Under the pieces are notes generated by a model that was not told the DNA's origin, did not search any database, and worked only from the letters and a program-made list of their open reading frames with translations. Made by a program: the position numbers and the translations under genes. Positions 1 to 16,302 of a stretch of DNA of 64,000 nt are shown here, piece after piece. The number at the start of each line of letters is the position of its first letter. Positions within the stretch are counted from its first letter, which is position 1. Source of the DNA: Cupriavidus pauculus (GTDB lineage: Bacteria > Pseudomonadota > Gammaproteobacteria > Burkholderiales > Burkholderiaceae); assembly GCF_003854935.1 (NCBI RefSeq), contig NZ_CP033969.1, positions 1,178,001 through 1,242,000 on the forward strand, written 5' to 3'.

Positions 1-1
1 C

Positions 2-706
2 TGTGGTCAGGTGTTTCGTTATGCGATTGCCACGGGCCGCGCAGAACGTGATGTCGCCGCCGATCTTCGTGGCGCGTTGCAGGCACGGCCTGTGACGAAC
101 TTGAAGCGAATTCCTGAGGCAGGACTCCCCGAGTTGCTGGAGAAGATCGACGCATACCAGGGTGATCCGCTAACGCGCTTCGCGCTGCAACTGCTGACCA
201 GGACGTTCGTGCGGACCAAGGAGCTACGCTTCGCAGAGTGGGCAGAATTCGATCTGCAGAAAGCCGAATGGCGTATTCCTGCCGCAAAGATGAAGTCGGA
301 TGTCTTGCACATTGTCCCGCTGTCTACGCAAGTTCTTGTGCAACTGAAGGCTTTGCAGGGCCTAACGGGGAACAGCCGATGGCTTTTCCCGAACACCAGC
401 AAGCCAGAGAAACCGATGAGTGAGAACACCGTTCTCTATGCACTCTATCGCATGGGGTACCACTCCAGAATGACGGGGCACGGCTTTAGAGGGCTTGCTT
501 CTACGATATTGAACGAGAACGGATTCAACCGCGACTGGATCGAACGGCAATTGGCCCACGTTGAACGCGATAGTGTGCGGTCAGCTTACAACCATGCGGA
601 GTACCTAGCCGAGCGGCGGCGGATGATGCAATGGTATTCGGACTATCTGGATAAGCTCAACGTGAAGTCCGGTGAGGTTCCAGTGGAGGAGGGTGTTGAG
701 AGATAG
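2..706 (+). CDS. Tyrosine recombinase (P4-type integrase), C-terminal part, cut by the window edge
   Basis: The reading frame is open to the left edge, so the start lies outside the window and only the catalytic part is seen. Counting from the GTG at 11, a full tyrosine-recombinase set is visible: Arg68 (FVRTKEL), Lys93, His157 and Arg160 (HGFR), His183 and the nucleophile Tyr193 (SAYNHAEY). The class catalyses site-specific integration and excision of genomic islands, often at tRNA 3' ends. That fits the tRNA fragment at 12079-12098. The catalytic domain looks intact, so the enzyme is probably functional if the missing N-terminus is present. The gene lies at one end of the low-GC island, as is usual for P4-type elements. 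Confidence 0.93.
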   Translation, partial: CGQVFRYAIATGRAERDVAADLRGALQARPVTNLKRIPEAGLPELLEKIDAYQGDPLTRFALQLLTRTFVRTKELRFAEWAEFDLQKAEWRIPAAKMKSDVLHIVPLSTQVLVQLKALQGLTGNSRWLFPNTSKPEKPMSENTVLYALYRMGYHSRMTGHGFRGLASTILNENGFNRDWIERQLAHVERDSVRSAYNHAEYLAERRRMMQWYSDYLDKLNVKSGEVPVEEGVER

Positions 707-778
707 TTAGTAATTTGGTTGCCGGCGTAGTCGGCGACTCAAAGTAGCTCGGCATCTCGCGATGCCCGGATAATTCTG

Positions 779-807
779 TTGACTTTGTATTGTATCTAAT
801 GTATTGT
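779..807 (+). promoter_or_regulatory. Possible sigma70-type promoter for the AlpA-like gene
   Basis: TTGACT at 779-784, a 17-base spacer and TATTGT at 802-807 resemble -35 and -10 boxes. They lie 66 bases ahead of the AlpA-like start. Prediction from consensus only. Confidence 0.35.
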
Positions 808-872
808 TTGCTTCTGCGCATCCTGCGCAAGCTCTTTAAGGAGAAAATCACTTAGAATTTTTGGAGGTAACA

Positions 873-1100
873 ATGCACATAAATGCATCTAACTCGACGC
901 TGCCGTTCGATGGCGTCTCACGTTTCAAGCAGTTTCAAGCCTTCCTTCCATTTTCCCGCGAAACTTGGCGCAAGCTGGTGAATGCCGGTAAAGCTCCGCA
1001 GGCGATTAGATTGGGCAATCGTTGCACTGTCTGGCGCAATAGTGAGCTACATCAGTGGCTACGTGAACCGGCGACCTACGGAAATGGAGGTGTCCAATGA
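873..1100 (+). CDS. AlpA-family MerR-like DNA-binding regulator / excisionase
   Basis: A 75-residue protein with a short helix-turn-helix of the AlpA/excisionase type (FSRETWRKLVNAGKAPQA, then a recognition-wing WRNSELHQWL). AlpA proteins activate integrase or excision functions of P4-like islands and prophages. ATG 873 was chosen over the in-frame TTG at 861 because a good ribosome-binding site (GGAGG, 863-867) sits just before it. The 3' end overlaps the next start by 4 bases (ATGA), so the two genes are translationally coupled. Position just after the integrase fits a control gene of the island. The exact target is unknown. Confidence 0.8.
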   Translation: MHINASNSTLPFDGVSRFKQFQAFLPFSRETWRKLVNAGKAPQAIRLGNRCTVWRNSELHQWLREPATYGNGGVQ

Positions 1101-2341
1101 ATTGCGGCACCATTTCTATAGAGGCATCGCGTACTCCTTGCGGATGTGACATTGATAACATACGCGGCCAGCAGGGGTATCCATACCAAAGTGATCTATC
1201 AGGCAGCGCGCCGCGCGTCGGAAGAGCATTTTGGTATGACGATATCGAATTTGCAGGGCCGATCCTAGAAGATTATTTTGTAAGACGATTCAGGGTGAAA
1301 TTCAACCCTCGGCTTGGCTTCGCGGAGGTCAGGCGTATGATGACTAGGATCATTCGGGCCGCCATCCATGCCTACGAAACAGATTCATGGTGTCTCTACC
1401 GGCAGAATGATCTGACGAGGCCGGAGAACAATTTCATTGAGCTGCTTTGGCATGACGGCTATGTTGACCGGGAGATTGGAAAATGGAACTCAGACAAGAG
1501 CCGATCAACTGCCAGTCGGTTCATGGCAACAGGTTTTCTGAAAGGGATTTTCGGCGGCCAAACCAACGTTCGAAAGATAGCGCCGCGCAAGAGTTGCATT
1601 CAGTTGCGCGATGCAACGGGCGAAGTGATTAAGGCTAATCCGCCTGGTGAGATGAATTCGGAGCTTGGTACGCTGAATAAGCTTACCCGAGCGGCGAAAA
1701 TTGCTTGTGATGGAGTCGAGTACACGGGACTTCAATATCGCCGAGTGTTCAATCGGGATTGGTCGCACGGTGGGCGCTTCTATTGTGAGTTTAGCCAACT
1801 ACCCAAAGCCTCACGGTCCAAGATGTTGATCGATGGCGAGGGCACTACTGAGTTGGATTTCAGTTCAATGCATATCTATCTCGCCTATGCGATGGTCGGG
1901 GAAAAGTTCTCTGGCGTAGACGCGTATGCAGTGGAGGGCTTTACGCGCGAAGAGATGAAGGTCGCTAGTTTGATCTGTCTGAACGGCGGTGATGCTCGTG
2001 CGGTGCGTTCGCACTGGCATACGGCTTCTTTGGCAGCGTCTAGGTCACGGGAGTTGGCCACCTACATATATCGTTCCAAAGCGGCAGTAGAGGCTTTTAG
2101 AACGGCCCATGCGCCCATCGCCAAGATTTGGGAGATTCCGAATATTGGTCTGAAGTTGCAGTACCAAGACAGCTGTGTCATGGCAGAATGCATGCGCCGT
2201 CTTTGTGAACTCAATATTGTTCCCGTTTCCCTGCATGACTCGATTCGAGTCCAAAATAGGCACGCGGATACTGTAGAGAGCATAATGCGGGAGGCATCTT
2301 TCGCTATCTGTGCAGTGGATATCCCGGTGAGGCGCAGTTGA
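1097..2341 (+). CDS. Island protein with family A DNA polymerase-like palm motifs
   Basis: A 414-residue protein. Its C-terminal half carries three motifs in the order and form of family A DNA polymerases. Motif A is ELDFSSMH, with Asp254. Motif B is R284-x3-K288-x7-N296-G297, the same spacing as the Arg-Lys-Tyr-Gly O-helix motif. Motif C is SLHDS, with His380-Asp381. No 3'-5' exonuclease domain is apparent, and the protein is far shorter than a PolA. The N-terminal half (1-240) is unassigned. A likely role is replication or repair of the island's DNA, but this rests on motifs only. The gene is coupled to the AlpA-like gene and followed by a terminator. Confidence 0.6.
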   Translation: MNCGTISIEASRTPCGCDIDNIRGQQGYPYQSDLSGSAPRVGRAFWYDDIEFAGPILEDYFVRRFRVKFNPRLGFAEVRRMMTRIIRAAIHAYETDSWCLYRQNDLTRPENNFIELLWHDGYVDREIGKWNSDKSRSTASRFMATGFLKGIFGGQTNVRKIAPRKSCIQLRDATGEVIKANPPGEMNSELGTLNKLTRAAKIACDGVEYTGLQYRRVFNRDWSHGGRFYCEFSQLPKASRSKMLIDGEGTTELDFSSMHIYLAYAMVGEKFSGVDAYAVEGFTREEMKVASLICLNGGDARAVRSHWHTASLAASRSRELATYIYRSKAAVEAFRTAHAPIAKIWEIPNIGLKLQYQDSCVMAECMRRLCELNIVPVSLHDSIRVQNRHADTVESIMREASFAICAVDIPVRRS

Positions 2342-2343
2342 TG

Positions 2344-2386
2344 AAATTCCGCAAATCCTTTTGGCTATTGGGTTTGCGGAATTTTG
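2344..2386 (+). terminator. Intrinsic terminator after the polymerase-like gene
   Basis: A perfect 12-bp stem (2344-2355 pairing with 2373-2384) with a 17-base loop, ending in a short T-run. It starts 2 bases after the stop codon. Confidence 0.75.
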
Positions 2387-2411
2387 TGTCATATAATGGT
2401 ATGTTTCCTTG

Positions 2412-2438
2412 CTCTCTCTCTCTCTCTCTCTCTCTCTC
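2412..2438. repeat. CT dinucleotide microsatellite (13.5 units)
   Basis: Uninterrupted CT alternation over 27 bases. It sits between the terminator and the ATG at 2459, inside the reading frame that an ATG at 2396 would open. Confidence 0.95.
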
Positions 2439-2458
2439 CTTTACTAATTCAAGAAAAA

Positions 2459-2863
2459 ATGATTCAACATCAAATTCCTGTGATTGGTGGTGAAGAGGAG
2501 GAGGTAGTTGTTATCACTCAGTTCGAATCAGGTGATGAGTGCGGACTGAAATGTGTATTCAGGGAAAGGACGATTGAGGCTCTAGAGGGAGACTACTTCG
2601 AAGCGTTCTGCGAAATCCGTAAGGCGCTTGAAAAGGAAAATATCGTTCCGTTTTGCTACGGTGCAAGTCTGAATGTCTATCCCTCTGCAATGGCTAGACA
2701 GATGGGTGAGGGTCTTCGTGCATATCGCCTGACAATGGGAGTGCCATCGTCGCAAGACCAACTCGTGCAGATATTCGATCAAGGTCCTGACATTATTCCA
2801 GCCTCAGTCTCGCAGCAGGAGCACTTTTATCGCGAGTGGTGTATGGCAGGTAAGGCTTCTTGA
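2459..2863 (+). CDS. Hypothetical protein, 134 aa, downstream of a CT microsatellite
   Basis: I do not recognise this family with certainty. From ATG 2459 the protein is soluble and acidic, with an EEEE run near the start and a conserved-looking core around residues 70-125 (YGASLNVYPS, AYRLTMG, IFDQGPD). No signal peptide or membrane segment is seen from this start. The frame is open further 5': an ATG at 2396 would add a 21-residue leader, MVCFLALS followed by Leu-Ser repeats encoded by the CT tract. Neither start has a clear ribosome-binding site. Length changes in the CT tract would shift the longer version out of frame. Confidence 0.55.
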   Translation: MIQHQIPVIGGEEEEVVVITQFESGDECGLKCVFRERTIEALEGDYFEAFCEIRKALEKENIVPFCYGASLNVYPSAMARQMGEGLRAYRLTMGVPSSQDQLVQIFDQGPDIIPASVSQQEHFYREWCMAGKAS

Positions 2864-2874
2864 TGAGAAATCCG

Positions 2875-3162
2875 TCAATCAGTTAAAGGGTATTGTTCTG
2901 TTGGAGTTTCGCCTTCGAGACGTCGTGCGTATAGCGTAATGTGTCGATTAGCCAGATCAATCTGGTATTTGTATATCTCAAACGGCCATTCATCGAAGGT
3001 CATGCGGTCGCGAAAGCCCCCATTTGCCTCACTGACGATCTGCAAAAATTCCGACGCAGTTGTCTGTCGCTTGGCGACAACCTGGCACTTGTCGCGAAAC
3101 GATACTGTTACGTCATAGTCGCCCTCATTCGCGAACAGCGACAAGTATTCTGGGTAGTCCAT
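2875..3162 (-). CDS. Hypothetical small protein, 95 aa
   Basis: Small minus-strand gene, convergent with the preceding one. The ATG at 3162 has a good upstream GGAGGG at 5 bases, which supports a real gene. The protein has alternating charged and hydrophobic stretches (DYDVTVSFRDK, TFDEWPFEIYKYQIDL) suggesting a mixed alpha/beta fold, with no signal peptide or membrane helix. I cannot assign a function. It lies among other small unknown island genes. Confidence 0.5.
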   Translation of the reverse strand: MDYPEYLSLFANEGDYDVTVSFRDKCQVVAKRQTTASEFLQIVSEANGGFRDRMTFDEWPFEIYKYQIDLANRHITLYARRLEGETPTEQYPLTD

Positions 3163-3309
3163 CTGGCCCTCCGGCAGTTGGTAGCGATTGCGGCAAGCGG
3201 GTAGGATTAATCTGCCATGTCGCGCCTACAATACAGCACTTTCCCAGTATCGTTCGAAGAAAGGGTGTGATATCAATAGCCTGAGGACACCTTCCAAAAA
3301 AGGGACTGA

Positions 3310-3681
3310 ATGAACCGAGTTGCGCGCTTCGAGGCCGAAAAGGCTGCCAAGGTACGGCAGGAGTTAATCGACCAGGGTATGACGGTAGATCAGGCTGCCG
3401 AACACCAGGCGACGGAAGCACGGATCGCAAAGGCAATTGCCTGGCTGCAGGGAATGCTGTTCAGCGAAGAGCAGGACTACATCGCCGACAGCAATGCTGA
3501 TGCCGCAGATCGGCACAACGGCATCAATCCAATGAGTGAAGAGTACCTCCAGCAAGTGAACGCGAAGCGCCTAGCCTTGGGCATTCCGGCCCTTGCACTG
3601 TCGGGATTTCCGACCGGCAACGAGAGCCATGTTTATTGTGAGGTTCTGGTTCGAGAGCTTTCAATCATGCTGAAGCGATGA
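3310..3681 (+). CDS. Hypothetical helical protein, 123 aa
   Basis: A predicted mostly helical soluble protein; the first 50 residues are rich in Glu, Lys, Ala and Gln and could form a helical hairpin (RFEAEKAAKVRQEL, QAAEHQATEARIAKAIAWLQ). A GGGA sits before ATG 3310 as a modest ribosome-binding site. No motif I recognise. It converges with the serine recombinase gene, leaving 18 bases between the two stop codons. Confidence 0.5.
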   Translation: MNRVARFEAEKAAKVRQELIDQGMTVDQAAEHQATEARIAKAIAWLQGMLFSEEQDYIADSNADAADRHNGINPMSEEYLQQVNAKRLALGIPALALSGFPTGNESHVYCEVLVRELSIMLKR

Positions 3682-3699
3682 GCAGGTGTTAGCCTTGTC

Positions 3700-4326
3700 T
3701 CAGGCAGCCAAGGTCTCCCGCTTCAATTGTTGCCCCAAACGCGAAAGCGTGGAACGGGAGCACCCAGTGGCTGCAATGATGTGGTTCCAGCTATCCCCGC
3801 GCGACAGCATCTGCATGATGGCGGCGTTGCGCTGGATGTCCGGCTTGCGCCCCTTGTATCCCCCTTCGGCCTTGAGCTTTGCAATTCCTTGGGCCTGCCG
3901 CCGCCTGCGGTCGGTGTAGTCCTTTCTCGCGATGGCAGCCAGCATATCTAGCATCATGGCATTGAGGGCTTCCATCATTCGGCTCGTCATCTCATCAGTG
4001 GCATTGGTCATCATCCAAGACGTTGGCAAGTCAAGGGCGACCACACGGACCCGGCGTGCCTGGAGTTGAGCCTTCAGCTTTTCCCAATCCTCAGCATTGA
4101 GGCGCGACAGGCGGTCAACTTGTTCAATGAGCAGGATGTCGCCCTGGTGGCAGTCAGCCAACAGCCGGAACAACTCCGGTCGCTTCAGTGATGCCCCGGA
4201 CTCGTTCTCGACATAGAAGGCAGCAATCGGCAAAGCCCGCTCCTTCGCAAACGCTTCTAAATCTCCCTTTGCGCGGTTGGCGTCTTGTTCCTTAGTCGAG
4301 GCACGTAGATAGGCACGGACGAACAT
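3700..4326 (-). CDS. Serine recombinase (resolvase/invertase family)
   Basis: A 208-residue small serine recombinase. The N-terminal catalytic domain holds the nucleophile Ser10 (YLRASTKEQD) and the conserved VDRLSRL segment near residue 70. A helix of about 25 residues leads to a C-terminal helix-turn-helix (NHIIAATGCSRSTLSRLGQQ). Family members resolve cointegrates or invert DNA between short res sites, often located just upstream of their own gene. Here the upstream side is the 390-base gene-free stretch before the defence operon, which contains short inverted and direct repeats. It may belong to a separate transposon-like module carrying the cargo. Full length, with no defect seen. Confidence 0.92.
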   Translation of the reverse strand: MFVRAYLRASTKEQDANRAKGDLEAFAKERALPIAAFYVENESGASLKRPELFRLLADCHQGDILLIEQVDRLSRLNAEDWEKLKAQLQARRVRVVALDLPTSWMMTNATDEMTSRMMEALNAMMLDMLAAIARKDYTDRRRRQAQGIAKLKAEGGYKGRKPDIQRNAAIMQMLSRGDSWNHIIAATGCSRSTLSRLGQQLKRETLAA

Positions 4327-4716
4327 ACAAAGCCCTCATGGTTCTCTTTGCATAGTTCTCAATATAACGGTTCCATTTGGGTCGTGCAAGGGCATATATC
4401 GAACTACCTTTTCACTCTTGCAGCATGGTTCGCCTGATGTACACCACAGCAGAACCGGTGCGGTCAACAGGCCCCGCCGAAACCGTATTTGTCGGCCTCG
4501 TCAGGCTTGCCTCCAGGACCAGTCTCCCGCCACTCTGACGCTAAAATTTCCGCCCGGAGATACGGTGCTCAGCTGATAAAATAGGCGGCACGACTTGCCA
4601 TACCTCTCTTCAATTTTTGATGCTTCATCACACGCCGAGTCTTCCTGGCTTGGCCGTAAGCGAACCGGAAAGCAGAACCATTGCTGCTTTTGCAGATAGG
4701 GCGATGCCAACTAAGA
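4327..4716. other. 390-base gene-free region between the serine recombinase and the methyltransferase
   Basis: AT-rich left part with GTTCTC twice (4341-4346 and 4355-4360) and an imperfect inverted repeat, TAGTTCTCAATATA (4353-4366) against ATATATCGAACTA (4394-4406). This is a plausible res or operator region for the divergent recombinase. The right part contains the sequence ATAAAATAGG (4576-4585), which is repeated before the DUF262 gene. The methyltransferase promoter must lie here, but I see no convincing consensus box. Reading frames in this stretch have no support as genes. Confidence 0.45.
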
Positions 4717-6084
4717 ATGAAAAAATTTCGTTTCGTTGACCTCTTCGCGGGGCTTGGCGGCTTTCATGTGGCTCTCGATGCGTTGGGCGGCCAATGTGTT
4801 TTCGCGGCTGAATGGAAACCACATCTACAAGATCTATACGAGACCAATTTCGGTCTGCGACCCGCAGGAGATATTACCGACGTCTTGCCAGAAATGGTCC
4901 CAGACCACGATGTCTTGACGGCCGGTTTTCCATGCCAGCCTTTCTCCAAGGCTGGGGAGCAAAAGGGTTTCGAGTGTACGGAGCAGGGTGATCTGTTCTT
5001 CAACGTTGAAGCCATCATCAAGGCGAAGAAACCCCAGTTTTTTATACTGGAAAACGTTCCAAATCTCCTCAACCACGACGGAGGTAGGACTTGGCAGACA
5101 ATTCAAGCCCTTCTGGGAGTCGGGGGGCTGGGATACGACATTCGGGCAACTCGCTTTTCCCCTCATCACTTCGGCATTCCCCAAATTCGCGAGCGGGTGT
5201 ACATCGTAGGCTCGCGCTCTTCGCTAAGCCATTTCGAGTGGCCGGAGCCGACGCATAGTGAGACGAGCATTGAAACGGTGCTTGATGCATTTCCGCCGGA
5301 TGCAAAGAGCTTATCGCCGCAGGTCGAAGACTGCCTGACCCAATGGAACAAGTTCGTGAAGGCAGCCCCCAAAAAACTCTACCTCCCTTCATTCCCACTT
5401 TGGTCTATGGAGTGGGGGGCTGACTACCCGTTTGAAGATGAGACTCCCTATGCTGTTTATGCGGCCAAGGGGATGCGCGGTCTCGCAAAGTTTCGGGGCT
5501 CACACGGTAGGCCATTGCGCGAACTCAGCGGTGACGAGCGTTGGCTAGCTCTACCGAGTCATGCTCGTAGCGAACAGCTTGAGTTCCCTAAGTGGAAGAA
5601 AGATTTTATCCGTCAGAATCGGCGGTTTTATGCGGAAAACTGTAGTTGGATTGATCCATGGATGAAAGATATCCTAAGATTTCCGTCCAGCCTGCAGAAA
5701 CTTGAATGGAATGTTCAGGGCGAGAAGGGCGAGGTTTGGGATTACGTTCTCCAGTTCCGGGCATCTGGCGTGAGAGTAAAGCGTCGTAATACTGCGCCCA
5801 GTCTGATTGCTATGACCGACACACAAGTGCCAATTATCGGTTGGGAACGGCGATATATGACACCGAGAGAGTGTGCGAGGCTGCAGAGTTTGAGCGAACT
5901 GAAAGCGCTGCCATCTAGCAACTCGCGCGCGTTCCAAGCGCTCGGAAATGCCGTGAATGCAGACGTTGTGAGAGCGGTTGCGCGAGCTCTGCTAGGCCAA
6001 GGAACTAGGCCGAGCAAGACTTCCTTGTTGTCGGAGAAAGCGAGTCGGAGAAGTATTGTTCCGGAGTTGGCAAAGGCTTTGTAG
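4717..6084 (+). CDS. DNA (cytosine-5-)-methyltransferase
   Basis: A 455-residue C5-cytosine methyltransferase with motifs in canonical order: SAM-binding FAGLGG (10-15), catalytic PCQ with Cys73 (GFPCQPFS), ENV (112-114), [10 protein letters not shown] (156-165) and GNAV (410-413). A long variable region of about 200 residues between the middle and last motifs should hold the target-recognition domain. It transfers a methyl group from S-adenosylmethionine to C5 of cytosine in a specific site. As first gene of the DUF262-Z1-nuclease cluster it most likely protects host DNA, or writes the mark that the other genes read. ATG 4717 starts the conserved domain; the in-frame start 36 bases upstream is less likely. 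Confidence 0.95.
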
Positions 6085-6131
6085 GGCAGGTCAGCAGTCC
6101 AAGGGCCAGTGTGAGGGTTTGGGGATTTGCG

Positions 6132-6143
6132 GCGTTCGAACGC
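6132..6143. promoter_or_regulatory. Perfect 12-bp palindrome between methyltransferase and DUF262 genes
   Basis: GCGTTCGAACGC is its own reverse complement. It sits in the 89-base gap, about 30 bases ahead of the DUF262 start, where an operator would control the DUF262-Z1-nuclease genes separately from the methyltransferase. It could also be the enzyme's own target site. Both are inferences. Confidence 0.35.
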
Positions 6144-6173
6144 GGCAGGAAGTTAATAAAATAGGGGTCACAA

Positions 6174-8003
6174 TTGGAAAATATCGAAGACTTTGATGAT
6201 GTTGAGTTGGGTGGCATCGCCCAATACCTTGCGGAGTTGTCGCAGGAAGGTCCGCTGCCACAAGGTGTGGGCCCCAAAATCGAGGTGGCCCCATTCCAAG
6301 CAGATGACGTTTCGTTTGAAAACAATGAATGGCTGAGGCGCACTCTTGCTGTCCAGGCCTGGCTTGGTCTTGATGCGCCGGTGTCGCTGGAAGCTTCGGC
6401 GACCGATGCGGCGATTCAGTTGCTGGAGCAGATTTCGTCCGATCCGGTAGAGGCATGCATTTCCGTCGGTGATGATTCGGTGAAACTGACGGATCTGGGC
6501 GCCCAGCATCTAGACACTTGGTTGTCACGAGCCGTCGCCCATCGAGAAGCATTTCTCGAGGCACTTGACGAAGATCGCAGTATTTCGGACGCGAGCGAGG
6601 AGTGGTCACTACTTTGGGAGGAGGCGACTACTCGAGCTCAGCAGCCGGCGCTGATAAAGGCGGAGGTGCAAACTCTGACCATTCGTCAGTTCTCTGATTA
6701 TGCTCGGCAAGGGTCCCTTGCCCTCAATCCTTCGTATCAGCGAGACAGCGTTTGGTCGGTTGGTGATTCTCAGACTCTCATCGACTCGATTTTGCGAGGC
6801 ATTCCAATCCCATCGATCATCCTCACACAGGTTGATGGTGGCGAAGAACTTCAGATAGTTGACGGGAAGCAGCGGCTAACTGCCATACTTCGATTCATCG
6901 GTCAACATCCCGCTGCGTTGGATTTTGCGAAGTCCCTTGATGCAGAGGCCGATTTTGATCGCGATCACAGGAAGTTTATCCGTAAGCATCACCTCAAGAG
7001 TCAGCAGATATCCAGTCACTACCTACCTTTTCGCCTTCGATCGTATCCACCGGGAGACCCGCTGCATGCTGTCTCGCGGCGCTTTTACTGTGAAGTCAAG
7101 GATCAGCGCATAGAAAGCGGACAGGGTAACGTAACGATAAAATCGATATTTGAGAACGCGCTGACTCGGTACAAGATTCCAGTCATTGTCTATGAGAACA
7201 CGCGTCTCCAAGATATTCATCACGTCTTTTCGATCTACAACAAACAAGGTAAGAAGCTGAATGCCGAGGAGTTAAGGAACGCAACATTCCATCACCTTGC
7301 TCTCACTAAGCTTCTTCTTGTACTAAGCGGCGATCGGCCTGATCCGGATCTCGCGCCATATCTGCCGTCGGACGTGAAGGATCGGATCGGGGATGTTGGC
7401 GAGACACTTCGAGATCGCGGTTTTGGCACTATGCGGTTCAAGCGGACGAAGGTTTTGTCTTGGGTATGCGCAATCATGCTACACCAGCCGAATAGCGCAA
7501 GAGATGGTACGTTCGTCACGCCATCCACAGCGAGCCACATTGACGCCCTGCTGAGTAGCATTAGTCGCGAACAAGGGAATCATCCACTGTTTCAGCATAC
7601 AACGCTGGTTACGCTTGCCCGCGACGTCAAAGCGGCGGTAGCACTTCATGCAGTCGCCGAGGACGCATGGTCCCCAAGATTTCGAAGCAAGAAAGGACAC
7701 GCTTCCCGATGGGAAGAGTTGCCGCTGGTCGCCAGTATGCTTGCTTCTCTAATTTTGGTTGCAACCGGTCAGTCGCAACGTCTTGAGGACGGCATTGCGG
7801 ATGTTCGAGCGCTTACGGAAGCGAGCCCTGGCCCAACCAAGACGCAGAATAAGACGCAATGGGAGTACGTCGCAAAGGTCTCTCTGGGCGTACTGCGAAC
7901 ACTAGGCATCGACACTGAAAGCGCTACGCAGGTATTGGAGCGGCGCTATGGCTATAGTTGCATAGGCGTTCTTGAAACGCTTTCAGGCTTGAAGGATGCC
8001 TGA
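6174..8003 (+). CDS. DUF262 (ParB-like, DGxQR) protein, 609 aa
   Basis: After a 160-residue N-terminal region, a DUF262 domain begins near residue 165 (LNPSYQRDSVW, LIDSILRGIPIPSIIL). It carries the DGKQR motif at 230-234 and the downstream YNKQGKKLNAEELRNA segment (355-370). DUF262 domains in GmrSD, BrxU and SspE bind or hydrolyse nucleotides and couple detection of modified DNA to cleavage. Those proteins usually also carry a DUF1524 HNH nuclease domain, and I see no HNH motif here. The nuclease of the system is probably the separate PD-(D/E)XK protein downstream. The start is TTG with AGGGG about 7 bases upstream. The gap to the Z1 gene is 5 bases. Confidence 0.85.
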   Translation: MENIEDFDDVELGGIAQYLAELSQEGPLPQGVGPKIEVAPFQADDVSFENNEWLRRTLAVQAWLGLDAPVSLEASATDAAIQLLEQISSDPVEACISVGDDSVKLTDLGAQHLDTWLSRAVAHREAFLEALDEDRSISDASEEWSLLWEEATTRAQQPALIKAEVQTLTIRQFSDYARQGSLALNPSYQRDSVWSVGDSQTLIDSILRGIPIPSIILTQVDGGEELQIVDGKQRLTAILRFIGQHPAALDFAKSLDAEADFDRDHRKFIRKHHLKSQQISSHYLPFRLRSYPPGDPLHAVSRRFYCEVKDQRIESGQGNVTIKSIFENALTRYKIPVIVYENTRLQDIHHVFSIYNKQGKKLNAEELRNATFHHLALTKLLLVLSGDRPDPDLAPYLPSDVKDRIGDVGETLRDRGFGTMRFKRTKVLSWVCAIMLHQPNSARDGTFVTPSTASHIDALLSSISREQGNHPLFQHTTLVTLARDVKAAVALHAVAEDAWSPRFRSKKGHASRWEELPLVASMLASLILVATGQSQRLEDGIADVRALTEASPGPTKTQNKTQWEYVAKVSLGVLRTLGIDTESATQVLERRYGYSCIGVLETLSGLKDA

Positions 8004-8008
8004 ACGAG

Positions 8009-10870
8009 ATGAGCAAGGAGACGCAAATTTTCGTGGAGACGTTACGGCCCGTGGTGTCGAATGTTTCCGCAGCCCAGCCGCAACGCCCCCCCTATGGCGA
8101 GTCTGGCTCTTGGTGGGATCGCTACGCATCGGCTATCGCCCGGCTACCGGCGGACACGCAGCGCGTAGTTGAAGTAGATGCCCGCTATATTGCCGACCAC
8201 GCCGTTCCGCGTTCGAATGGGGCTATTGACTTCGATGCATACGGCGCGACTAGAGTACGGACAGGGATCGTTGTTGGCTCGGTTCAATCTGGCAAGACTG
8301 CGAGCATGCTCGCAGTGGCGGCTTTGTTGCTCGATAGTCGTGTTGATATCTTGATTGTCCTTGCGGGGACACGGGTTGCACTTTGGTTACAGACGTATGA
8401 GCGGCTTCTGAGCCAACTTGACGGAACCGACGTCCGCAGCGCGTGGACGAGGAATCGTCAGCGAGTATTGATACCGCAGCCAGAGGACATTTTGTCCAGC
8501 GAGGAGCGAGTCGATCCGTCGAGGTATATCCGAGGTGCACGCCTAAAGTTCCAAGACGCAATTTGCACCGGCAAGCCAGTAATCTTCGTCGTCCCCAAAG
8601 AAGATGACCATTTGCTGGCTCTGGCGCGGTTTCTCACAAATGAGACTGGGCCTGCTTCCTGTGTCGGCCGGGATAGACCGCTGAGCTTAGTGGTGCTCGA
8701 TGATGAGGCTGACGATGCCAGTATCCTTGATGCTCAGGACGGGACTCGCATCACCCCTCAGTTCATTCAACACCTTTGGTCTTCCGACGCATGCGCGCCA
8801 GCTACTAGGCACGATAGGCTCTATGCAACATATATTGCTTATACAGCAACGCCGCAAGCGAATTATCTACAGCGCTCCCACAACCCACTCACGCCGCGAG
8901 ACTTTCATGCGGCCCTGCGTGTTCCGTCCGACCGAGGGCAAGACACACCGCGAACTGTCACCTACACGGAACGAAACGGCCTGAGGTCCTATTACACAGG
9001 CGGGGAACTCTATTATGAGCGCCTGCAAGGTCTACCGGGAGATCCGTGCATTGGCTTCCCGTTTTCTTCCGAGACGGATCAGTATGGTTCAGTTCGCTGG
9101 CAGATGATCGGCGATGCAATGCGATCGTATCTGGTGGCGGGTGCAATACGACTACACATCGATCGGAAGCAGCTTTCTGCGGTTCCAGCCGAGCCACTCC
9201 CGTTAGATGTTCTGCGGCGGTTATTGCCTGCTACTCACAGCATGCTGTACCACCCGTCCGCACTTAAGGAGGAGCACTTTGGCGGGGCCGAGGATATCGC
9301 GCGATGGACAAAGGCAATTCCCGGCTACGAGGCCGAGACTCAGTTGCTTCGTGATCAAAGTGGAGATGCGGTGTTGTCCGTCGATGCCGAAGGGCTTGTT
9401 CGGCGGCTTGAGCTTGAAGAGGACCTATGGAAAGCATGGCTCGGTAGCTTTATGGCGACCGCGTCAGGTCTTGCCCCGCTGCCGGGTGGAGCGGATGCTC
9501 TTCTGGGCCCAGTAACTTGGCCTGAGGTAAAACAGTTACTGGTTGAAGAGGTGTTTCCTCGCATTAAGATCCGAATTCTAAACAGCGATCCGCGTGCCGA
9601 TGAGCGGCCTTGTTTCGAACCCAAGGAGGCCGAAGAGCGAGGATTGTGGCACGCTCCGCGCGATGTTTACACGATCTTCGTTGCCGGAAACGTTCTGTCC
9701 AGGGGACTCACGGTCGAGGGACTATGTACGAGCCTTTTCTTGCGTGGAGCACGAGAGCCTGCTGCGGATACCCAAATGCAGATGCAGCGCTGGTTCGGCT
9801 ATCGGGGTTCCTATGCCGCACTCTGTCGTGTATTTCTTTTTGCCGATCAACTACAACTGTTCCGTCAGTATCATCGTAACGATCTTGCGCTAAAGACTGA
9901 AATACTGAACCACATGGATGGGCACTCCGCCCCGTTCAACGATGGGGTCTTGGTGCTTCAGGGGCAGTCATTCCGCGCGACGGGTAAGATCGAGAGTCGT
10001 CGGGTGCCCTTGCACCCAGGGGCCACACCAGCGATTCGCCTTGTCGAGCCGTCTTGCGGCAATCACTATGCTGACAATCTCTGCCTAGTGGAAGAGCTTT
10101 TGGCAGAAGGGAGTTGGCAACCTCTCAACTTCCCGTCCGACATGCAGCGTGGTTTGATTCGCACTATCCCGATGAGCATGCTCGAAATCGCTTCTATACT
10201 AGAGCGTCTTCGCTATTCCATTCATGATCCGGACCTCAGCCTAGATTTATCTCAGCGATGGGTGAGCCTTCAACGCACACTAAACTTATCGGAGCCACTG
10301 TTCCGTCCCCCCGGCGTTAATCCGGGACCTATGGCAGTCGATCCCTCCGGATGCCCCTACTCCATAGCTGCGTATCTTCGTCTTTGGAGTGAGGCGCTTA
10401 AACGGCATGATCTTCCGGGAATGCAGCCTACCGACAACCCGACGATGCCGTGGAGCATGTTGAATCTTTCTGCATACAGGAGAGCGGAGCCACGCTTCTA
10501 TGTTGGTGTGCGCTTTGGATCTGAACAAGGGACTTCGCGCCTAAAGTATGACAATCGACCGTTGCCGATGATGAGGCGAGGACTGTCTGCCAGTAAATCG
10601 CACCTCCTAGAAACGCTCTGGGGCTCAAGAAATCCAACGGAACGTTGGAAAGGGGATCAGGCTTTCGACTATCACTTTCATGATCCGCAAAGCTCTCCTC
10701 GCCTGCTAGAAGAGGGAGCTTGGCGACCTCGGGGCCATCCTGGACTATTGCTCCTCCACCCAATAGCCGAGCCGGGATCTGGTCGCGAGTTGATTGCGTT
10801 TGGCTTGGCGCTTCCACACGGTGGGCCTGATCACGTAGCCGCGCTGCGTATCCGCAGTAATAGTCCATGA
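8009..10870 (+). CDS. Z1-domain superfamily II ATPase/helicase-like protein, 953 aa
   Basis: A P-loop ATPase with Walker A GSVQSGKT (90-97), Walker B LVVLDDEAD (227-235) and the helicase-like motif YTATPQANYL (278-287). The Z1 signature follows: GNVLSRGLTVEGL (560-572) and QMQRWFGYR (591-599), whose arginines probably reach the ATP. Z1 proteins occur in restriction-type operons with MutL/MORC-like ATPases, PD-(D/E)XK nucleases and cytosine methyltransferases, where a DNA translocase or remodelling role is proposed. The C-terminal third (650-953) is unassigned and may contact DNA or the nuclease. The gene overlaps the next by 4 bases (ATGA), implying coupled production of two partner subunits. 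Confidence 0.92.
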   Translation: MSKETQIFVETLRPVVSNVSAAQPQRPPYGESGSWWDRYASAIARLPADTQRVVEVDARYIADHAVPRSNGAIDFDAYGATRVRTGIVVGSVQSGKTASMLAVAALLLDSRVDILIVLAGTRVALWLQTYERLLSQLDGTDVRSAWTRNRQRVLIPQPEDILSSEERVDPSRYIRGARLKFQDAICTGKPVIFVVPKEDDHLLALARFLTNETGPASCVGRDRPLSLVVLDDEADDASILDAQDGTRITPQFIQHLWSSDACAPATRHDRLYATYIAYTATPQANYLQRSHNPLTPRDFHAALRVPSDRGQDTPRTVTYTERNGLRSYYTGGELYYERLQGLPGDPCIGFPFSSETDQYGSVRWQMIGDAMRSYLVAGAIRLHIDRKQLSAVPAEPLPLDVLRRLLPATHSMLYHPSALKEEHFGGAEDIARWTKAIPGYEAETQLLRDQSGDAVLSVDAEGLVRRLELEEDLWKAWLGSFMATASGLAPLPGGADALLGPVTWPEVKQLLVEEVFPRIKIRILNSDPRADERPCFEPKEAEERGLWHAPRDVYTIFVAGNVLSRGLTVEGLCTSLFLRGAREPAADTQMQMQRWFGYRGSYAALCRVFLFADQLQLFRQYHRNDLALKTEILNHMDGHSAPFNDGVLVLQGQSFRATGKIESRRVPLHPGATPAIRLVEPSCGNHYADNLCLVEELLAEGSWQPLNFPSDMQRGLIRTIPMSMLEIASILERLRYSIHDPDLSLDLSQRWVSLQRTLNLSEPLFRPPGVNPGPMAVDPSGCPYSIAAYLRLWSEALKRHDLPGMQPTDNPTMPWSMLNLSAYRRAEPRFYVGVRFGSEQGTSRLKYDNRPLPMMRRGLSASKSHLLETLWGSRNPTERWKGDQAFDYHFHDPQSSPRLLEEGAWRPRGHPGLLLLHPIAEPGSGRELIAFGLALPHGGPDHVAALRIRSNSP

Positions 10871-11958
10871 GCGCTAATATCACCTTCGAACAACTCCGAG
10901 ACACATTGGAGCGCATCGAATCCCCTTTGCGAGGAGGGGAGCGTTTCACGTATTGGGTATTGCCGAGAAAGCTTGGTATCGCCAAAACGGCCGATTCGGC
11001 ATTCGAGATATTCATTGTGGGACCAAGATTGCACCCACTGACTTCCACGGTTCGAAGGCATCTTGAGCATGCCAGATGGGAAATCGCGGAGAGCGGAGAG
11101 CAACTTGATGCAAATCGTGTCGTGTTACCGCCGGGCACTCATTTCGCATCGATCTCTGCGCTCATCGCCATTGAACTCGTCCGAGCAGGTATTGACGAGA
11201 ATCGGCCGTTACAGCAAGTGATGGATGATGTTGAGCCAATCATTGAACTCGCTTTGCGCAGGAGAGCGCTAAGTGAGGAGCACGTAGTCGGCTTGGTTGG
11301 GGAGTTGCTGTGCCTCGAAACAATGCTTGACGCAATCGTAGACCGTCCCGAGTTAAGGATGTCGGTGCTCGATATGTGGCAGGGGCATCGTGTCGGGGGT
11401 AGGGATTTTGTGATTGGCGATACTGCAATCGAGATAAAAACGACCTATCAGGAACACTCCTCTCACATGATTTCCGGACTTCATCAAGTCGAGTTATGGT
11501 CGGCTTCCGATGAGGCTGTGAGGCAGTTGTTTCTCCTAAGCGTGGGCCTGGCGGAGAATGAGCATGAAGGTCAAACATTGCCGGAGATAGTGGGGCGCGT
11601 GCTAGAGCGACTTGGAGAAACCCCAGGTTCGGGATGCGTTCTCACACCTCTTCAACAACGTTTCGTGCGTGACGTGGCTAGCTACGGAGCAACCGATTCG
11701 TCCGGATATGATCACCAGAGCATGGCTGGATGGAAGGTATATGCGGCGCGCTTCAGATCTACGTTCACTCCTAGACTCTACGATCTTCTAGACGAAGACG
11801 TCCGAATCCTTCGCCGTCGTGACTTGACGTCAACTCATGTCAGTTCGGAGGATATTCAGTACAGGGTGAATCTTCCCGCTGCGATAAACGGCTTCAACCC
11901 AGCTCAGAGTTGGCGCCATGTCGTAGTCGATGTTGTTAAAAGTGCACTTTCAATTTGA
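10867..11958 (+). CDS. PD-(D/E)XK nuclease family protein (DUF4420-type)
   Basis: A 363-residue protein with a restriction-endonuclease-like active site: Glu146 in GLVGELLCLE, Asp180 in GGRDFVIG, then Glu189-Ile-Lys191 (IEIKTT). This is the PD-(D/E)XK pattern and matches DUF4420 proteins found beside Z1 genes. The likely role is metal-dependent DNA cleavage, with target choice or activation by the Z1 and DUF262 partners. The motif spacing is normal and no key residue is missing. It is the last gene of the cluster; the stop lies about 120 bases from the island end. The family is reasonably sure; the cleavage specificity is unknown. Confidence 0.88.
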   Translation: MSANITFEQLRDTLERIESPLRGGERFTYWVLPRKLGIAKTADSAFEIFIVGPRLHPLTSTVRRHLEHARWEIAESGEQLDANRVVLPPGTHFASISALIAIELVRAGIDENRPLQQVMDDVEPIIELALRRRALSEEHVVGLVGELLCLETMLDAIVDRPELRMSVLDMWQGHRVGGRDFVIGDTAIEIKTTYQEHSSHMISGLHQVELWSASDEAVRQLFLLSVGLAENEHEGQTLPEIVGRVLERLGETPGSGCVLTPLQQRFVRDVASYGATDSSGYDHQSMAGWKVYAARFRSTFTPRLYDLLDEDVRILRRRDLTSTHVSSEDIQYRVNLPAAINGFNPAQSWRHVVVDVVKSALSI

Positions 11959-11998
11959 TTTTTGAACCCCTAAGCAGGACCCAAGTACAGCGAGAACA

Positions 11999-12066
11999 AT
12001 TTGGGGGCATGTCTGGGGGCACATAAAATACTCACATCCAGATAACGGCGAAGTTTTGGGGGATGT
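11999..12066. repeat. Three TTGGGGG-type repeats at the island end, candidate integrase arm sites
   Basis: TTTGGGGGCATGT (12000-12012), TCTGGGGGCACA (12012-12023) and TTTTGGGGGATGT (12054-12066) lie directly inside the proposed attachment site. Clusters like this beside att cores are typical binding sites for P4-type integrases. Inferred from position and repetition. Confidence 0.55.
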
Positions 12067-12078
12067 AAGGCGGAATGT

Positions 12079-12098
12079 GAGTCCTGCAGCCGGCACCA
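12079..12098 (+). other. Attachment site: 3' fragment of a tRNA gene (island right end)
   Basis: GAGTCCTGCAGCCGGCACCA reads as the end of a tRNA: half of the T loop, the 3' T-stem strand CCTGC, the 3' acceptor strand AGCCGGC, discriminator A and CCA. The upstream bases do not complete a tRNA (no matching GCAGG T-stem strand), so only the fragment duplicated by integration is present. The intact tRNA, starting GCCGGCT, should lie left of the window beyond the integrase. A threonine tRNA would be compatible with the acceptor sequence, but the anticodon is not visible. Confidence 0.75.
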
Positions 12099-12107
12099 AC
12101 GAATTCA

Positions 12108-12140
12108 AGGGGTTACGCGAGCTTTGCGTAACCCTTTTTA
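12108..12140 (+). terminator. Intrinsic terminator, probably the original tRNA terminator
   Basis: A 9-bp stem GGGTTACGC / GCGTAACCC (12110-12118 with 12126-12134), a 7-base loop and five T's. It stands 11 bases after the tRNA CCA end, where the native tRNA terminator would be. Confidence 0.85.
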
Positions 12141-12169
12141 TTTGTCCCCCGCAATCTGAGCGTCAGGGG

Positions 12170-12982
12170 CTACCGACGTTCGCTCTTGATGATCTCGGCA
12201 AGCTCTTCCACGCTCAGCCATGGGCGTGATGCATGTACTACCCTGTGGCAATTAGCGCAAAGTAGTGCAAGCTCATCCAACCGTGTAATCCCGCCTTCTG
12301 CTAGCGAGTGAAGTGGCCGAGTGTGGTGGACATCAATAATGTTAGCGCCGCGGTTGCCGTACTCCGCTTCGAAGTCAAAGCCGCAGGCCTCGCAGCAAAG
12401 GCGGCCATACTTCTTTCTCGCAGCTGCTTTAGCGGCAAGTACTAAAGCGCGGCTTCGTTCACGTACGCGGTGCATGCGAGTAAGTATCCGGCCCTCTTCG
12501 GCTTCTGCGACTTCAGGCTCTTCCGGACCAAGGCCAGCGCCATTTAACGGGTCATCGATAGCTTGAATAATTGCCCTACATACCAGGGATAGTTCAAGTG
12601 GGTTGCCGGCATATCTCGCCCATACGATCTCTTCGTCTTTATTGCCCCTAGCAAGCCCAACTTTTCCGTTTTTCGTGTATTCGGGATCGAAGCGGCGGAA
12701 GTTCATCATTTTCATGTAGACGCCGTTTCTATTGCGGTATGAGCCGTCATGTCCCAGACCTAAGGTTGTGCCCATCTTATTTAAAGTAAGAGAGAGCGCA
12801 GCCACCTCGGGGCTGTCCTTGCTGGGTGGAGCGGAGCGATGCGTCAAGTACAACTGAAGCGCCAGGAGCAATTCGTCGCGGGACCAAACGGGATTGCGCT
12901 TAACGGTGCTACCTGTCACAGCGTCCTTGGTGAGACTTGCGTTGTCAGGCAGAAGAGATGGCGTATTCGACTTAAGGGGCAT
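12170..12982 (-). CDS. HNH endonuclease, McrA-like
   Basis: A 270-residue protein. The C-terminal HNH domain shows a zinc-binding Cys pair (Cys197, Cys200), catalytic HH at 219-220 (IDVHHTRPL), and CANCHRVVH at 242-250 with Asn244 and His250. The N-terminal half (WSRDELLLALQLYL, then NRNGVYMKMMNFRRFDP) is a domain that often precedes HNH nucleases and probably reads DNA. McrA-like enzymes cut DNA with modified cytosine. The gene lies outside the attachment site at 12079, yet its base use resembles the island rather than the core chromosome. It may be a remnant of an earlier insertion at the same tRNA. If it cut 5-methylcytosine generally it would conflict with the nearby methyltransferase. 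Confidence 0.88.
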   Translation of the reverse strand: MPLKSNTPSLLPDNASLTKDAVTGSTVKRNPVWSRDELLLALQLYLTHRSAPPSKDSPEVAALSLTLNKMGTTLGLGHDGSYRNRNGVYMKMMNFRRFDPEYTKNGKVGLARGNKDEEIVWARYAGNPLELSLVCRAIIQAIDDPLNGAGLGPEEPEVAEAEEGRILTRMHRVRERSRALVLAAKAAARKKYGRLCCEACGFDFEAEYGNRGANIIDVHHTRPLHSLAEGGITRLDELALLCANCHRVVHASRPWLSVEELAEIIKSERR

Positions 12983-13057
12983 GGAAGGGTTCTAGTTCTC
13001 ATATTCCCCCTATTTTCATCAGATTCGATGCACTTCAGTCAACTTTAAGTCGACTAC

Positions 13058-13102
13058 AACAAAAAAGACGAACGCCGCCGGGAGCAATCCCCCGTGCGGC
13101 GT
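13058..13102 (-). terminator. Intrinsic terminator of the PhoX-like gene
   Basis: ACGCCGC-CGGG pairs with CCCG-T-GCGGCGT (13072-13082 with 13091-13102). On the minus strand it is followed by a T-run (A's at 13058-13066). Confidence 0.65.
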
Positions 13103-13157
13103 GTGATCAGTTCCTAGCTGTGGAGGGCTCTAGCTTTCCTCCGACGACTCACCCCCA

Positions 13158-15059
13158 TCAAGCCCCCACCGGCTTCCCTTCCTTGTGCCGCAGCACCACC
13201 GTCGACGAACGCGACGGCAGGTTGGCGTCCGGCCAGTTGCCGCCGGCGGCGCCGGTGCCGGTCGGGTGCTGGATGTTGATGAAGAACGTGGTCAGGTCCG
13301 GCGTGTAGGCGATGCCGGTGATCTCGCAGCCTACCGGGCCGACCAGGATGCGGCGCGTCTGGCGCGTGGTCTGGTCCAGGTAGTGCATCGAGTTGGCGCC
13401 GAAGATGCTGGTGACAGACGACCCCGTGCCGGCGTCGGTCTGGATCCACAGGCGGCCCTTGGGGTCGACGCGGATGCCGTCCGGGCTGCTGAACGTCGAG
13501 CCGACGATGTTGCCCTTCTGGTTGGCGGCGGCGATGGACGGGTCGCCGGCCAGCAGCAGGATTTCCCACTTGAACTTGGTTGCCAGCGGCGAATCGGCGT
13601 CCTCGCGCCAGCGCACGATGTGGCCGTGCGGGTTGGTGGCGCGCGGGTTGGCTGCGTCGGTCTGCACGCGGCCGCCGTTGTTGGTCAGCGTGCAGTAGAT
13701 CGTCTTGTCCTGGCCCACCGTGATCCACTCCGGGCGGTCCATCAGCGTGGCGCCGGCCACGCGGGCGGCGGCCTTGGTGTTGATCAGCACGTCGGCCTGG
13801 GTGTTGAAGTCGATGGCCACCGGCGTCGTGGCACCCGGGGCGGCCTGGGTCCAGTTGCCCGGGTCCGATGCGCCGGCCACCAGGCCGTTCTTGCCCTGGG
13901 TCAGTTCGATCCAGTCGCCGGTGCCGTCGGCGTTGAAGCGGGCGGCGTACAGCGTGCCGTTGTCGAGCAGGCTGGCGTTGTTCAGGCGGTTGGTCGCGTC
14001 GAACGCGCTCGACGGGATGAACTTGTAGATGCAGCCCGGCGTGCCGTCGTCACCCATGTAGAACGCCACGCGGTTGCTGGCGTCGGCCATGAACGCGGTG
14101 TTCTCGTGGTCAAAGCGGCCCATCGCGGTGCGCTTGACCGGCAGGCCGGACAGTTGCTGCAGCGGGTCGATTTCCACCACCCAGCCGTAGCCCTCGTCGG
14201 GCTGGGTCGGGTCCAGGTAGTTGTCGGTGGTTTCCTCGCAGGTCAGGTACGTGCCCCACGGCGTATGGCCGCTGGAGCAGTTGTTCAGCGTGCCGATGAC
14301 CACCGGGCCCACCGCGCTGGCGGCCGGGCCCGAGACACGGTAGGCCGTGTTGCCCGAGTAGCGCTTGTTGTAGAGCGAGTTGCGCTTGACCTGCCACTTG
14401 CCGGCCACCAGTTCCACCTCGATGACCGAGACGCCGACTGACGACAGCACCACGCGTTTCTGCTCCGGCGTGGCCGTGGCGGCGTTGTAGGCGGTGGGCA
14501 GCAGGATGGCCGCGTCGGGGGCCTCGTGGTTCATCACCAGCAGGCCGCCCTTTTGCGGATCGACGCCGGGGATCTCGAAGAAATGCATGCCGTCGTGGTT
14601 GCCGCCGGCCTGCTGCTCGGTCTCCATCGACGTCTGGAACGCGCCCTTGTAGCCGGCCGCGCCTGCCGCGACGGGGTCGCCGGCCGAGAACAGGACGTAC
14701 GTTTCATACGTGTCCGGCACGGTCACCTGGTTGGCCGTGATCTTCGACGGCAGCGACTGGAAGTTGACGCTGTAGTCCAGCGGCTGCTGGCCCGGTGCCG
14801 GGGCGGGCGCGGGGGCCGGGGCAGGTGCCGGCGCGGGCGACGGGGCCGGCGCGGCGCCGTTGTCGTCGTCGCCGCCGCAGGCAGCCAGCAGGGTGCCGCC
14901 GCCGAACGCGGACAGCAGCGAGACGCCCAGGCTGCCACGCAGCACGCGGCGGCGTGCGGGGTTGGCGGCCACCAGTTCTTCCAGCGTCTGACCCGGGACG
15001 GTCTTGTTGCCCTCGGCGTCGCGGCGCGGCGCGCGGAGCTTGTCGGTGATGTACGACAT
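13158..15059 (-). CDS. PhoX-family (DUF839) exported protein, probable alkaline phosphatase
   Basis: A 633-residue protein with a twin-arginine signal (Arg36-Arg38, RRRVLRGSLGVSLLS) and a possible lipid-anchor Cys61. A Pro-Ala repeat linker at about 70-89 leads to the DUF839/PhoX beta-propeller-like domain (FFEIPGVDPQKGGLLVMNHE, LTCEETTDNYLDP, WITVGQDKTIYCTLTNNGG). PhoX enzymes are calcium- and iron-dependent periplasmic phosphatases exported folded by Tat, although many family members are untested. A strong GGAGG precedes ATG 15059. A perfect 8+8 dyad lies about 100 bases upstream. No PhoB-box match was evident by eye, so phosphate control is not shown. Confidence 0.85.
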   Translation of the reverse strand: MSYITDKLRAPRRDAEGNKTVPGQTLEELVAANPARRRVLRGSLGVSLLSAFGGGTLLAACGGDDDNGAAPAPSPAPAPAPAPAPAPAPGQQPLDYSVNFQSLPSKITANQVTVPDTYETYVLFSAGDPVAAGAAGYKGAFQTSMETEQQAGGNHDGMHFFEIPGVDPQKGGLLVMNHEAPDAAILLPTAYNAATATPEQKRVVLSSVGVSVIEVELVAGKWQVKRNSLYNKRYSGNTAYRVSGPAASAVGPVVIGTLNNCSSGHTPWGTYLTCEETTDNYLDPTQPDEGYGWVVEIDPLQQLSGLPVKRTAMGRFDHENTAFMADASNRVAFYMGDDGTPGCIYKFIPSSAFDATNRLNNASLLDNGTLYAARFNADGTGDWIELTQGKNGLVAGASDPGNWTQAAPGATTPVAIDFNTQADVLINTKAAARVAGATLMDRPEWITVGQDKTIYCTLTNNGGRVQTDAANPRATNPHGHIVRWREDADSPLATKFKWEILLLAGDPSIAAANQKGNIVGSTFSSPDGIRVDPKGRLWIQTDAGTGSSVTSIFGANSMHYLDQTTRQTRRILVGPVGCEITGIAYTPDLTTFFINIQHPTGTGAAGGNWPDANLPSRSSTVVLRHKEGKPVGA

Positions 15060-15408
15060 GGATTCCTCCAGATTTTTGTGGGGGCGGCCGCCGTGCGGAC
15101 GGTGCCGTAGGGATTAGCCGGCCAGATACTAAGGAGGGAATGTGTCGCTTTAGTTACGGAATGACTCGTCATGGAGTCATTGCCGGGGCCGCCGGGCGGC
15201 GGCCGGGTGCCGCTTCAGAACGCCGCCGGGGGTCCGATAACGGTGAGGGGGGCAGGTCCGTCAAGGGTTGCGGTGTCCGATGACAGGGTGATGGCATCGG
15301 CGCCTGCCTCGCGCATAATCCGCACACGCGGAACATCGACCCTTCCTGAAAAGGGCAAAACATATCCGCCGTTCATTTTTTTGTTGGGTACAACAGGAGA
15401 GGTCAAAC
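15060..15408. other. 349-base divergent intergenic region
   Basis: It lies between the divergent PhoX-like and GH114-like genes. It contains a perfect dyad, AATGACTC (15160-15167) and GAGTCATT (15174-15181) with a 6-base spacer, and a small hairpin CCCTT/AAGGG near 15340-15355. Promoters for both genes should be here, but no strong boxes were identified. Confidence 0.5.
15160..15181. promoter_or_regulatory. Perfect 8+8 inverted repeat, candidate operator
   Basis: AATGACTC-N6-GAGTCATT. A 22-base dyad of this form suits a homodimeric regulator. It lies about 100 bases upstream of the PhoX-like start and 228 bases upstream of the GH114-like start. The regulator is unknown. Confidence 0.45.
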
Positions 15409-16302
15409 ATGCATAGCAAACTGGCAGGCCGCCGCCTTGCGCGACTGGCCGCGGCAACCCTCGTCGCCACGCTCGCCGCATGCGGCGGAGGCGGCGACGA
15501 CGACGGTGGGTCCGTGGTGCGGGTGTCCGAAGCCACCACGCTGGCGCCAACGGCCGTCACCACCGTGGACACCGCCACCACGCGCTGGATGCCGTCGCTG
15601 AACGACACCTGGCAGCTCCAGCTCCAGGGCACGATCAACACCAGCTACAACGTGGCGGTCTACGACATCGACCTGTTCGATACACCGCAGGCCACCATCA
15701 ACGCGCTGAAGGCGCAGGGCAAGCGGGTGGTCTGCTATTTCTCGGCGGGCAGCAGCGAGAACTGGCGGCCCGACTATTCGAAGTTCAAGCCGTCCGACAT
15801 GGGCAACGCGCTGGACGGCTGGGCGGGCGAGCGCTGGCTCGATACCCGCTCGGCCAACGTGCGGGCGATCATGCAGGCGCGCATGGACCTGGCGAAGTCC
15901 AAGGGCTGCGACGGCGTGGATGCCGACAATGTCGATGGCTACACCAACAACCCGGGCCTGCCGCTGACGGCCGCCACGCAGCTCAACTACAACCGCTTCC
16001 TGGCCGACCAGGCGCACGCGCGGGGCCTGGCAATCGGGCTGAAGAACGCCGTCGCGCAACTGGCCGACCTGGCGTCGTCGTTCGACTTCGCGGTCAACGA
16101 GCAGTGCTTCCAGTACAACGAGTGCAGCGGCTATTCGGCGTTCACGGTACAGGGCAAGCCCGTGTTCAACGTCGAGTACCAGGCGAAATGGAAGGACGCC
16201 ACCACGCGCCAGAAGCTCTGCGCCAAGGCCAGGGCGCTGAACCTGCGGTCGCTGGTGCTGCCGCTGGCGCTGAACGACAAGTTCCGCTATAGCTGCGACT
16301 GA
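15409..16302 (+). CDS. GH114-like endo-alpha-1,4-polygalactosaminidase family lipoprotein
   Basis: A 297-residue protein. A lipoprotein signal ends at Cys25 (LVATLAACGGGGDDD), so it is probably anchored in the outer membrane. The rest matches the GH114/TM1410-like TIM-barrel: YDIDLFD, RVVCYFSAGSSENWRPDY, GCDGVDADNVDGY and the late FNVEYQAKW. The acidic residues in CYFSAGSSE and DADNVDGY are candidates for catalysis. Family enzymes cut galactosamine-containing exopolysaccharide, but bacterial members with this annotation are mostly uncharacterised. AGGAGAG sits before the ATG. It is not in an operon with the convergent YgjP-like gene. Confidence 0.82.
   Translation: MHSKLAGRRLARLAAATLVATLAACGGGGDDDGGSVVRVSEATTLAPTAVTTVDTATTRWMPSLNDTWQLQLQGTINTSYNVAVYDIDLFDTPQATINALKAQGKRVVCYFSAGSSENWRPDYSKFKPSDMGNALDGWAGERWLDTRSANVRAIMQARMDLAKSKGCDGVDADNVDGYTNNPGLPLTAATQLNYNRFLADQAHARGLAIGLKNAVAQLADLASSFDFAVNEQCFQYNECSGYSAFTVQGKPVFNVEYQAKWKDATTRQKLCAKARALNLRSLVLPLALNDKFRYSCD

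Follow-up and report, generated by a model that had tools for sequence, protein, structure and literature searches.

A DUF262 protein appears to stand in for a different ATPase in a restriction-modification-like operon of Cupriavidus pauculus

Analysis of a 64,000-nucleotide stretch of the Cupriavidus pauculus genome (NZ_CP033969.1; hereafter the window) identified four neighbouring forward-strand genes at positions 4717..11958. Their composition was that given in an original prediction, a cluster of C5 methyltransferase, DUF262 protein, Z1 ATPase and PD-(D/E)XK nuclease genes adjacent on one strand:

4717..6084, + strand, C5-cytosine DNA methyltransferase (M), 455 amino acids (aa) (Pfam DNA_methylase, 2.9e-66)
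6174..8003, + strand, DUF262 (GmrSD_N, ParB/Srx-like NTPase) protein, 609 aa (Pfam, 1.5e-24)
8009..10870, + strand, third gene of the operon, first read as a Z1 ATPase
10867..11958, + strand, DUF4420 PD-(D/E)XK nuclease, 363 aa, with E146/D180/E189-x-K191 (Pfam, 2.1e-21)

The methyltransferase scored 234 bits against the TIGR00675 dcm model (cut-off 100.65). The DUF262 domain occupied residues 179-372 of the 609-aa protein, which retained the DGKQR and PxYQR motifs; Pfam matched nothing in its N- and C-terminal regions, and the same scan found no DUF1524/HNH nuclease domain. The linkage of M to a nuclease, both with intact active sites, is that of a restriction-modification (R-M) system. Judged by sequence, the four genes look like an R-M system of distantly related bacteria in which DUF262 replaces the different ATPase of related systems.

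The survey of related loci covered 80 sources and yielded 71 whole trios, i.e., the three operon genes other than M. DUF262 homologs thus do recur with the partner genes, a matter which the original prediction had left to a neighbourhood survey, and the nuclease residues E146/D180/E189-x-K191 were kept in 71/71, in line with its claim of intact motifs. A C5 M similar to that of the window was present in 75 of the 80 sources, with a match of at least 411 aa in 70 of the 71 whole trios and no M match in the remaining one. Defence genes cluster on islands, and the four could be unrelated defence genes that happen to share one; these counts refute that explanation, which we regard as scarcely credible. 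The alignments (A1-A3, of 62, 55 and 37 chosen rows) excluded seven loci that were fragmentary or lay at an edge (L009, L041, L044, L049, L070, L079 and L080), rows below the length limits and M rows below 130 bits; 15 diverged M rows were excluded from the M tree.

Among the closest known systems is MzaABCDE (Gao 2020, as cited in PMC9523054; NCBIfam/PADLOC models), and the operon could be an ordinary MZA system whose second gene was misnamed. The MzaC and MzaD models scored only 102.3 and 56.5 bits, far below their cut-offs of 1500 and 420. MZA-like loci found in the survey have GHKL (MutL-like ATPase) and AIPR genes; here, as originally claimed, there was no GHKL profile match in window positions 1-16000, and an AIPR gene was found in 0 of the 80 sources. 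In addition, a comparison of the DUF262 and GHKL profiles gave a probability of 0.1%. We therefore consider an ordinary MZA system very improbable.

Other described systems differed as well. In the text of PMC9523054, the Type II form of a candidate system includes AIPR and is linked to MORC, neither of which was found here, the Type I form has three further genes that the text leaves unnamed, and DUF262 does not appear in the main text. The third MORC operon type, as outlined in Iyer et al. 2008 (PMC2292703), combines an SF2 helicase carrying a DThhQXuRhFG motif with an E-D-ExK nuclease; by eye, 9/11 motif positions and 4/4 nuclease residues matched here, but that operon type has MORC and the window operon does not. 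The Corynebacterium diphtheriae BH8 island (an EcoRII-like nuclease and three unclassified proteins in the account of PMC5379612) is set apart by description, not sequence. The CglI/NgoAVII systems are described in PMC4267653 with a PLD-type nuclease and with neither DUF262 nor DUF4420; no PLD match to such an R-protein (PLD/B3) was obtained among the ten window proteins scanned. The earlier suggestion of a possibly undescribed variant is compatible with these comparisons: the architecture is conserved, its description was not found in the searched papers, and no named system in the searched catalogues matched at cut-off.

According to PMC10952713 and PMC11662687, DUF262 domains also occur, as here, in defence proteins, among them SspE, DndI, BrxU, GmrSD, Menshen, Dazbog and PD-T4-2. 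These have other partners, and SspE, DndI and BrxU also have a fused HNH nuclease. In type IV enzymes, DUF262 constitutes the GmrS domain according to PMC8565348, which also reports that BrxU cleaves DNA with 5-methylcytosine (5mC), 5-hydroxymethylcytosine (5hmC) and glucosylated 5hmC (glc-5hmC), and the DGKQR motif is of the DGQQR type found in GmrSD and BrxU. The DUF262 machine might accordingly attack foreign modified DNA as those enzymes do, independently of its neighbouring M. However, their DUF1524/HNH nuclease had no match in the DUF262 protein here, M accompanies the genes in nearly all sources, and a machine that attacked 5mC would, next to a C5 methyltransferase, turn on its own host. 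We think this type IV-like activity decidedly unlikely.

An extra N-terminal domain of ~120 aa was present in 22 DUF262 proteins, all from Actinomycetota loci; 18 of these served to build its profile. L015, L016 and L066 had DUF262 proteins with different extensions, of which the one in L015 matched 'Methylase-associated X1'. Extended proteins had a partner M outside the window's class in 25/25 loci, and unextended proteins a partner of that class in 43/44 (the exception being L069), i.e., concordance in 68/69 loci, with only 2 independent starred pairs. That DUF262 may carry target recognition is a lead, not proof, because the trait changes just three times on the tree. In L031, a 506-aa open reading frame (13338-14858) had domains like the actinobacterial extension (102 bits) followed, by eye, by a nuclease-like stretch; the extension domain could be a target-recognition module of general use.

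GHKL genes were found in 2 of the 80 sources, L010 (5221-9999) and L073 (2800-5614), in each case as an M-GHKL pair next to the DUF262 operon and on the opposite strand to it. The M of the pair is a second one in L073; since it is the only M of L010, it may serve both the operon and the GHKL gene there. Similar methyltransferases pairing with either ATPase constitute a natural swap experiment, and the roles of MORC/MutL-like and DUF262 proteins in restriction are therefore directly testable.

We tentatively propose, as a possible though not the probable account, that DUF262 and GHKL ATPases are non-homologous, interchangeable switches reading the same methyl mark, that a single pool of methyltransferases, their target region conserved, has passed between two long-separated restriction machines, and that DUF262 is also a target-recognition subunit, with the extra N-terminal domain where its partner M is of another class. 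The original interpretation of the cluster as a whole, with DUF262 as sensor, Z1 as motor, DUF4420 as cutter and M marking self, was partly supported. Several observations weigh against the reading of the four genes as an R-M system, which we nevertheless consider more likely than not. L031 carries all three genes of the trio, with no C5 M match on its 15-kb contig; L015 and L074 each have a single C5 M, of weak similarity (61 and 53 bits); the C5 M of L040 and of L059 lies on the other strand, 2.4 and 3.1 kb distant; and the only M of L010 is the one paired with GHKL. The system is also rare, the window's own genome being the single carrier among 398 sampled Pseudomonadota genomes. Finally, the tyrosine position is occupied by isoleucine (PAIQR) in BrxU, an enzyme acting on modified cytosines, and the PxYQR tyrosine therefore does not show methylcytosine reading. 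Alternatively, the host's own methyl mark could turn DUF262 on and license DUF4420 against phage DNA, leaving the system inert without M, much as SspE is described in PMC13251355 to act with phosphorothioate. L031 fits this mark-activated defence, but the absence of any shortened M alongside the 71 whole trios fits lethal self-attack better, on small numbers, and we consider mark activation unlikely.

In L040 and L074, a second module near the operon consisted of a ParB-like gene, a ~300-aa partner and a C5 methyltransferase.

The operon is mobile cargo. Its location on an island, as first proposed, was evident from the following features, low G+C and closed flanks in relatives:

1..706 of the window, + strand, 3' part of a tyrosine integrase (whole gene C2:1177478-1178707; Pfam Phage_integrase, 2.1e-21)
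12079..12098, + strand, right-hand copy of a 20-bp sequence that repeats the tRNA-Thr 3' end and is probably an att site
C2:1177298, left copy of the repeat, inside tRNA-Thr(tgt) (C2:1177242-1177317)

The integrase gene, a complete open reading frame starting upstream of the window, sits just inside the repeat. The insert had a G+C of ~0.50-0.56 versus 0.65-0.73 in most of the window. Searches of 12 genomes from the same genus gave a match to the left flank in 11 and a strong match to the right flank in 8; the flanks were ~0.21, ~0.21 and ~0.12 kb apart in G773, G772 and G255, versus 13.9 kb here, ~1.05 kb apart in G767, and in separate places in G764, G766, G768 and G771. For the island open reading frames 1097-2341, 2384-2863 and 3310-3681, nothing in Pfam, PADLOC or NCBIfam matched at E 0.001. 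An HNH endonuclease gene (12170-12982) lies just beyond the right repeat within the same low-G+C block, and may be the remnant of a second insertion because in three relatives a distance of 0.1-0.2 kb separates the flanks lying beyond this gene. A serine resolvase gene (3700-4326) is divergent from M, and a recombinase gene directly precedes M in the Rathayibacter plasmid L121 too.
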